64,000 bases of DNA from Negativicoccus massiliensis (GTDB taxonomy: Bacteria > Bacillota > Negativicutes > Veillonellales > Negativicoccaceae). Shown here piece by piece: positions 18,554 to 19,740 of the stretch. The stretch covers positions 434,001 to 498,000 of the forward strand of contig LT700188.1 of assembly GCA_900155405.1 (NCBI GenBank), read 5' to 3'. The notes under the pieces were generated by a model. That model searched no databases. It saw only the letters and a program-made list of their open reading frames with translations, and was not told the DNA's origin. The translations under genes were made by a program, and so were the position numbers. How positions within the stretch are numbered: the first letter of the stretch is position 1; each line of letters begins with the position of its first letter.

Positions 18554-18582
18554 ATTATGATTTATCATCTGCTATTAGTCAA
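18554..18582 (-). promoter_or_regulatory. Candidate pnp promoter
   Basis: Minus strand TTGACT (18577-18582), 17 bp, CATAAT (18554-18559). It overlaps the last codons of the upstream cation-efflux gene. Confidence 0.6.
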
Positions 18583-19740
18583 GTTTTCAGGCGTAACGTC
18601 CTCATCGTGCATAATTTTGCCGGTAACATAATGTCGATCCACCACAATCGACAACTTATATTCGGGATAGCGAGCGTGAATCATATGACTTACCTGTCGA
18701 TAAATCGTCTCGTCATCATCTCGTATGCCGTCTTCTGCTTGAAAAAAAAAATGAACCGCCCAGATATCCCCCTGTTGTGTCGCGAAAAAGTCATGGACAT
18801 CCCAACGCGGATTTACCTGCGCAACCAGCCGACGCACATTGTTTTCAACCGCAAGCGTCGCCGGATTGGAAACGTTACGCGGATCCACATGCACCAACGA
18901 TTGCGCCTTATACTCATCGCGCAAACGCCGCTCAATCGAATCCGCAACGTGATGCGCTTCCAGCAAATTCATCCGACTGTCGACCTCAATATGAATGCTT
19001 AAAAAACGGAGCCCGGGTCCATAATCATGCACAATTAAATCATGGGCGCCTTCCACCCCCGGCATATCCGTCACGGCGGTCAATATCTCCTGCTCTTCCG
19101 CCAGGCTGATTCCCTTGCCTAAAAGCTTATCTACGCCCATATAAAGAACTTTCATTCCCGTATATAAAAGTGCAAGCGATACCAGCGCGCCAATATACTC
19201 ATCAATTTGCCAGCCGCCAACGTACTGCGCTCCAATGGCCAGCAAAACGCCTGCCGTCATTAAGAAATCGCTGGCGGCATCTGCGGTAAGCGCGGCTAAA
19301 ATATCAGATCCGCCGCGCGTTTTTAAGCGGCGAAAAAAAAGCACTAATCCCAATTGTACAATAAGTGACAACACCAATACTGCAATCAGAACCGGCTCTA
19401 TGACAAGATATTGCGGATAAATGATCCTATGTAATGCTTCCGCGCCGACGCCAAATCCGGCCAGTAAAATGATGACGCCGATAACACTTGTCGCCACGTA
19501 TTCGATGCGGGCCTGTCCGAACGGATGCTCGCGGTTGACAGGTTTACCCATCATATACAGCGACAGCGCAATCATAAAAGAACTACCGATATCTGTAAGA
19601 TCATGTAGCCCGTCACCAACGACCGCGACCGATCCGAACCAGTAACCGAGACCCATTTTACCGCCGGAGAGCAATACTTTGATTACGGTATAGACCAGCA
19701 ATAGAAGGCCGATTTGTTTTCTATGCTGCGTATTTTCCAT
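18565..19740 (-). CDS. Cation diffusion facilitator (CDF) transporter, sequence corrupted by an adapter insert
   Basis: Membrane antiporter exporting Zn/Co/Fe/Mn-type divalent cations. N-terminal region with about six TM segments. Metal-site motifs: GDGLHDLTDIGSS (TM2) and the TM5 DAASDFLMT. A cytoplasmic ferredoxin-like domain starts near residue 210, with a second similar region near the C-terminus (VNPRWDVHDF). The stretch encoding FFQAEDGIRD (minus strand, 18718-18751) is exactly an Illumina adapter plus poly-A and is not real protein. Flanking sequence stays in one frame (WAVHF before, DDETIYRQ after), so the true gene is probably intact but differs here in sequence and possibly length. 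Metal specificity cannot be read. Confidence 0.85.
   Translation of the reverse strand: MENTQHRKQIGLLLLVYTVIKVLLSGGKMGLGYWFGSVAVVGDGLHDLTDIGSSFMIALSLYMMGKPVNREHPFGQARIEYVATSVIGVIILLAGFGVGAEALHRIIYPQYLVIEPVLIAVLVLSLIVQLGLVLFFRRLKTRGGSDILAALTADAASDFLMTAGVLLAIGAQYVGGWQIDEYIGALVSLALLYTGMKVLYMGVDKLLGKGISLAEEQEILTAVTDMPGVEGAHDLIVHDYGPGLRFLSIHIEVDSRMNLLEAHHVADSIERRLRDEYKAQSLVHVDPRNVSNPATLAVENNVRRLVAQVNPRWDVHDFFATQQGDIWAVHFFFQAEDGIRDDDETIYRQVSHMIHARYPEYKLSIVVDRHYVTGKIMHDEDVTPENLTNSR
18718..18751 (+). other. Embedded Illumina P7 adapter plus poly-A (assembly artefact)
   Basis: Positions 18718-18741 equal the 24-nt reverse complement of the Illumina P7 flow-cell oligonucleotide (begins ATCTCGTATGCC, ends TTCTGCTTG). 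Ten A residues (18742-18751) follow immediately, the usual read-through tail. On the minus strand it translates as the well-known contaminant peptide FFQAEDGIRD. It is not biological sequence. Bases here replace or interrupt the real cation-efflux gene. Confidence 0.96.

Follow-up and report, generated by a model that had tools for sequence, protein, structure and literature searches.

Adapter contamination in public genomes usually takes the form of an Illumina P7 end carried by a recognisable stem and situated mostly at contig ends, as in 117 of the 123 matches listed for the P7 end followed by A6 (84 with a TruSeq stem, 33 with a Nextera stem). The site considered here, within a gene for a cation diffusion facilitator (CDF) in the window (the whole stretch of 64,000 nucleotides that was analysed), shares with this TruSeq and Nextera contamination the exact P7 end and the poly-A behind it. 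It differs in having neither stem nor index, in its position in the interior of one 1.36-Mb contig, and in that native bases are replaced one for one rather than extended. Among the matches listed, the only other stem-less interior site is that of Paenibacillus sp. GM2 (NZ_LN831279.1; L113:6047-6085), where P7 is followed by A15. There, the native sequence is present in a second tandem copy 120-130 bp downstream; an alignment of the two copies passes through the adapter with no gap, and the downstream copy naturally starts with ATCTCGTATGCCG, identical to bases 1-13 of P7. Common to both cases is a similarity-guided, length-preserving overwrite in a contig interior and without a stem. The likeness to the adapter is, however, a contiguous 13-mer in GM2 and a dispersed identity at the CDF site; furthermore, the GM2 locus is not a conserved gene and was compared with a paralogous copy, whereas the CDF site was compared with a relative. 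The GM2 case implies that the present window is not the sole instance of a similarity-seeded overwrite that preserves length. None of the titles found in literature searches on contamination by adapters, on screening and on gap closing describes such an overwrite pattern.

On the forward strand, positions 18718-18741 of the window hold the 24-mer ATCTCGTATGCCGTCTTCTGCTTG, which matches the reverse complement of the P7 oligonucleotide exactly (24/24), and the ten A's placed directly after it (18742-18751, same strand) constitute a poly-A tail as made by a read running past the adapter end. The sequence-only reading had recognised this arrangement and judged the 24-mer to be beyond chance; the match is indeed exact, and 100 shuffles yield 0.00 expected occurrences even with up to 3 mismatches allowed. 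That reading had also pointed to the rest of the assembly as the place to look for the same 24-mer, and the search gave no further copy: there is one in the whole 1,360,589-base genome (G000, a single contig), and none in the 3 family relatives searched. The same locus in the nearest relative (G001, from the same genus and with a DNA identity of 92%) and in the other homologues is without adapter sequence. Runs of A or T with a length of 10 or more occur only twice in the 1,360,589 bases of G000, both as tails behind adapters (A10, A18), and are absent from G001. The index and stem upstream of P7 are not present at the CDF site, and the sequence found there instead is native gene sequence common to G001, which argues against a simple read-through contig and fits a partial overwriting. 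Given that G001 has AAAA at the same place, the last four A's of the tail (18748-18751) are probably native rather than derived from the adapter.

Comparison with G001 reveals replacement instead of insertion. The relative aligns across the whole CDF gene over 1401 columns with 92% identity and 0 gaps. At the site, GTCGCGCGTACCGTCTTCTACTGAAATATCAAAA in G001 is opposed to ATCTCGTATGCCGTCTTCTGCTTGAAAAAAAAAA in the window, with 23 of 34 positions equal and, for the P7 part alone, 16 of 24. The differences are confined to an overwritten tract at 18718-18747 (assigned to neither strand), where 11 of 30 positions deviate from G001 without a gap; native sequence lies on either side, and the flanking bases are common to the window and G001, including AAAATGAACC after the tract. 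Elsewhere in the CDF gene, no 30-nt window has more than 8 differences from G001, and the substitution rate between the two genomes is 6.2% genome-wide. From the gapless alignment it follows that the 34 adapter and tail bases took the place of native ones and that none was added. The anatomy of an insertion, as implied by the sequence-only reading, must therefore be abandoned: 34 bases are exchanged for 34 homologous bases without a gap, and the insertion model was rejected on this ground. Excess divergence was dropped as sole evidence, being non-specific: in G000, 199 regions contain a gapless 30-nt window that departs from G001 at 11 or more positions.

The position of the tract in the genome is itself informative. 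Scores for P7 plus A10 were computed at all 2,810,104 gapless registers of the G001 genome, both strands included; the register homologous to the site obtained 23/34, a score that only 2 registers attain and none exceeds. A randomly placed adapter join would thus land on such a look-alike with a chance of about 2 in 2.8 million, and the location of the tract at a site ranking among the genome's closest likenesses to the adapter argues that its placement was guided by similarity. A point against the overwrite is that the 23/34 match of the G001 version looks too weak for strict mappers. Either the strain's own sequence must have been closer to the adapter than that of G001, or a permissive step must have been used.

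A second adapter is present in the same genome outside the window (G000:C1:854665-854740), comprising the full 58-nt TruSeq universal (P5-side) adapter and A18. It resembles the CDF site in the combination of adapter and poly-A and in the library type, of which it represents the P5-side arm of TruSeq; it differs in that the whole stem is included, 111 bases of the relative are lost and 174 bp are added. Collinearity with G001 extends to the base before this adapter and resumes at L155 position 1723. The replaced stretch extends over G000:C1:854665-854914 (L155:1472-1722), and its G001 counterpart, 111 bases among which lies a portion of the 5' end of a symporter gene, was not found elsewhere in G000. 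The adapter and A18 are followed by 174 unplaced bases of 32% GC, for which no match was obtained in E. coli genomes, phages, plasmids or viral contigs. The site is a false junction or gap fill by which the symporter gene lost its start, and it is located within a nominally complete genome. Searches for other traces gave little: AGATCGGAAGAGC occurs in G000 at the P5-side site only, the TruSeq R1 stem was not found genome-wide in G000, a Nextera match with 2 mismatches at 1211839 is probably due to chance, and a single further exact 14-mer, at 1291710, does not exceed chance, since G001 has two.

The second adapter with its poly-A provides independent evidence of untrimmed TruSeq reads in the assembly. 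Because of it, the adapter origin of the CDF tract and the use of untrimmed reads, both already proposed from the sequence, are close to certain. The second site (L155) also offers precedent for another explanation, in which adapter and tail were inserted, or contigs were joined chimerically, during primary assembly and the equal length is a coincidence. Native sequence ends there at the first adapter base, exactly as such a junction would have it, and the gap is filled with adapter, A18 and the low-GC bases. For the CDF site we nonetheless regard this origin as distinctly unlikely, in view of an alignment with no gap at all, a register that shares the top likeness to the adapter with just one other in 2.81 million, and the absence of the index and stem found ahead of P7 in joins of this kind.

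The gene carrying the tract encodes a CDF family transporter of 391 amino acids (18565-19740, reverse strand), as shown by its ORF and by the Pfam domains Cation_efflux (PF01545, E 4.8e-35) and ZT_dimer (PF16916, E 8e-19), in agreement with the family assigned earlier. The ORF is open through the tract, where its translation reads ...VHFFFQAEDGIRDDDET..., and the reading frame is kept because the overwrite preserved length; the continuous frame of the flanking parts, noted before, is borne out by the gapless G001 alignment, in which the adapter replaced an equal length. The artefact accounts for F, F, Q, A and I at residues 332-335 and 339, where G001 has D, I, S, V and T, amounting to five changes within eight positions. 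An alignment with homologues, as had been suggested for the region around residues 325-345, sets the protein apart at residue 332, which is D or E in 10 of 10 aligned homologues and F in the window's protein only. The pattern at the site in G001 and the ten homologues is F[DE] followed by a hydrophobic residue, and at the tract the real gene of the organism most likely specifies a C-terminal strand of the ordinary CDF kind. The statement of the sequence-only reading that the true sequence is unknown is correct base for base, but the kind of sequence to be expected is shown by G001 and the ten homologues. The native protein happens to contain EDGxRDDDE at the site already, a likeness that makes the artefact harder to spot. 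The sequence-only reading described the adapter peptide as known from contaminated databases; QAEDGIRD was not found in any paper of the literature searched.

Another idea is that the sequence is real, the gene having drifted by chance to the exact P7 plus A10 from an ancestor that was already similar. The G001 sequence does resemble the adapter (16/24 over P7, 23/34 over P7 plus A10), the ORF is intact and the surrounding region is ordinary. Drift would, however, have to supply eight specific substitutions to adapter bases in 24 nt at about 6% divergence, together with an A10 run that has no counterpart except behind the other adapter and the loss of an acidic residue kept in all ten homologues, and this in a genome that independently holds a full TruSeq adapter. 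Natural convergence is rejected for requiring the eight exact substitutions within 24 bases and the unique poly-A, and its probability is considered negligible. The tract in the CDF gene is a laboratory and software artefact, not biology.

The tract is best understood as a similarity-guided, length-preserving overwrite of a native look-alike by adapter from untrimmed TruSeq reads, and to this explanation as a whole we assign a probability of about 95%. Where fragments were short (or adapters had formed dimers), untrimmed TruSeq reads would have continued into P7 and from there into the A's of dark cycles. Such adapter reads may then have been aligned or merged onto the CDF locus, where the native sequence was by chance similar to P7 and poly-A, and the consensus would have been rewritten to adapter over a footprint of about 18718-18747, with length and frame retained. 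Only the locally alignable part would have been written in, hence the lack of index or stem. We infer that the responsible program step was most likely consensus polishing, read error correction or gap-filling, and not primary graph assembly. Considering the CDF site and GM2 as two independent examples, it seems somewhat probable that consensus steps on untrimmed reads selectively overwrite adapter look-alikes in register. If true, there exists a class of in-frame, length-preserving and stem-less adapter errors that mimic natural protein variants.

The biological interest of the locus is low; its value is that of a data-quality record and warning. Residues 332-335 and 339 are unfit for use in alignments, trees and family models, and the genome, with the start of its symporter gene lost at the second site, is to be treated as finished with untrimmed reads. 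An error that keeps both length and frame passes annotation checks, and comparison with a relative is thus more reliable than the hunt for frameshifts. P7 sites in contig interiors or on long contigs are also seen in isolate genomes at L066, L079, L133 and L134 (also L073 and L078). Several such isolates bear IHUMI/Marseille strain names or the epithet 'massiliense', which, as an impression among the matches listed, hints at one shared finishing pipeline. In three cases (L077, L085 and L097), metagenome-assembled contigs carry P7 with poly-A at both ends.
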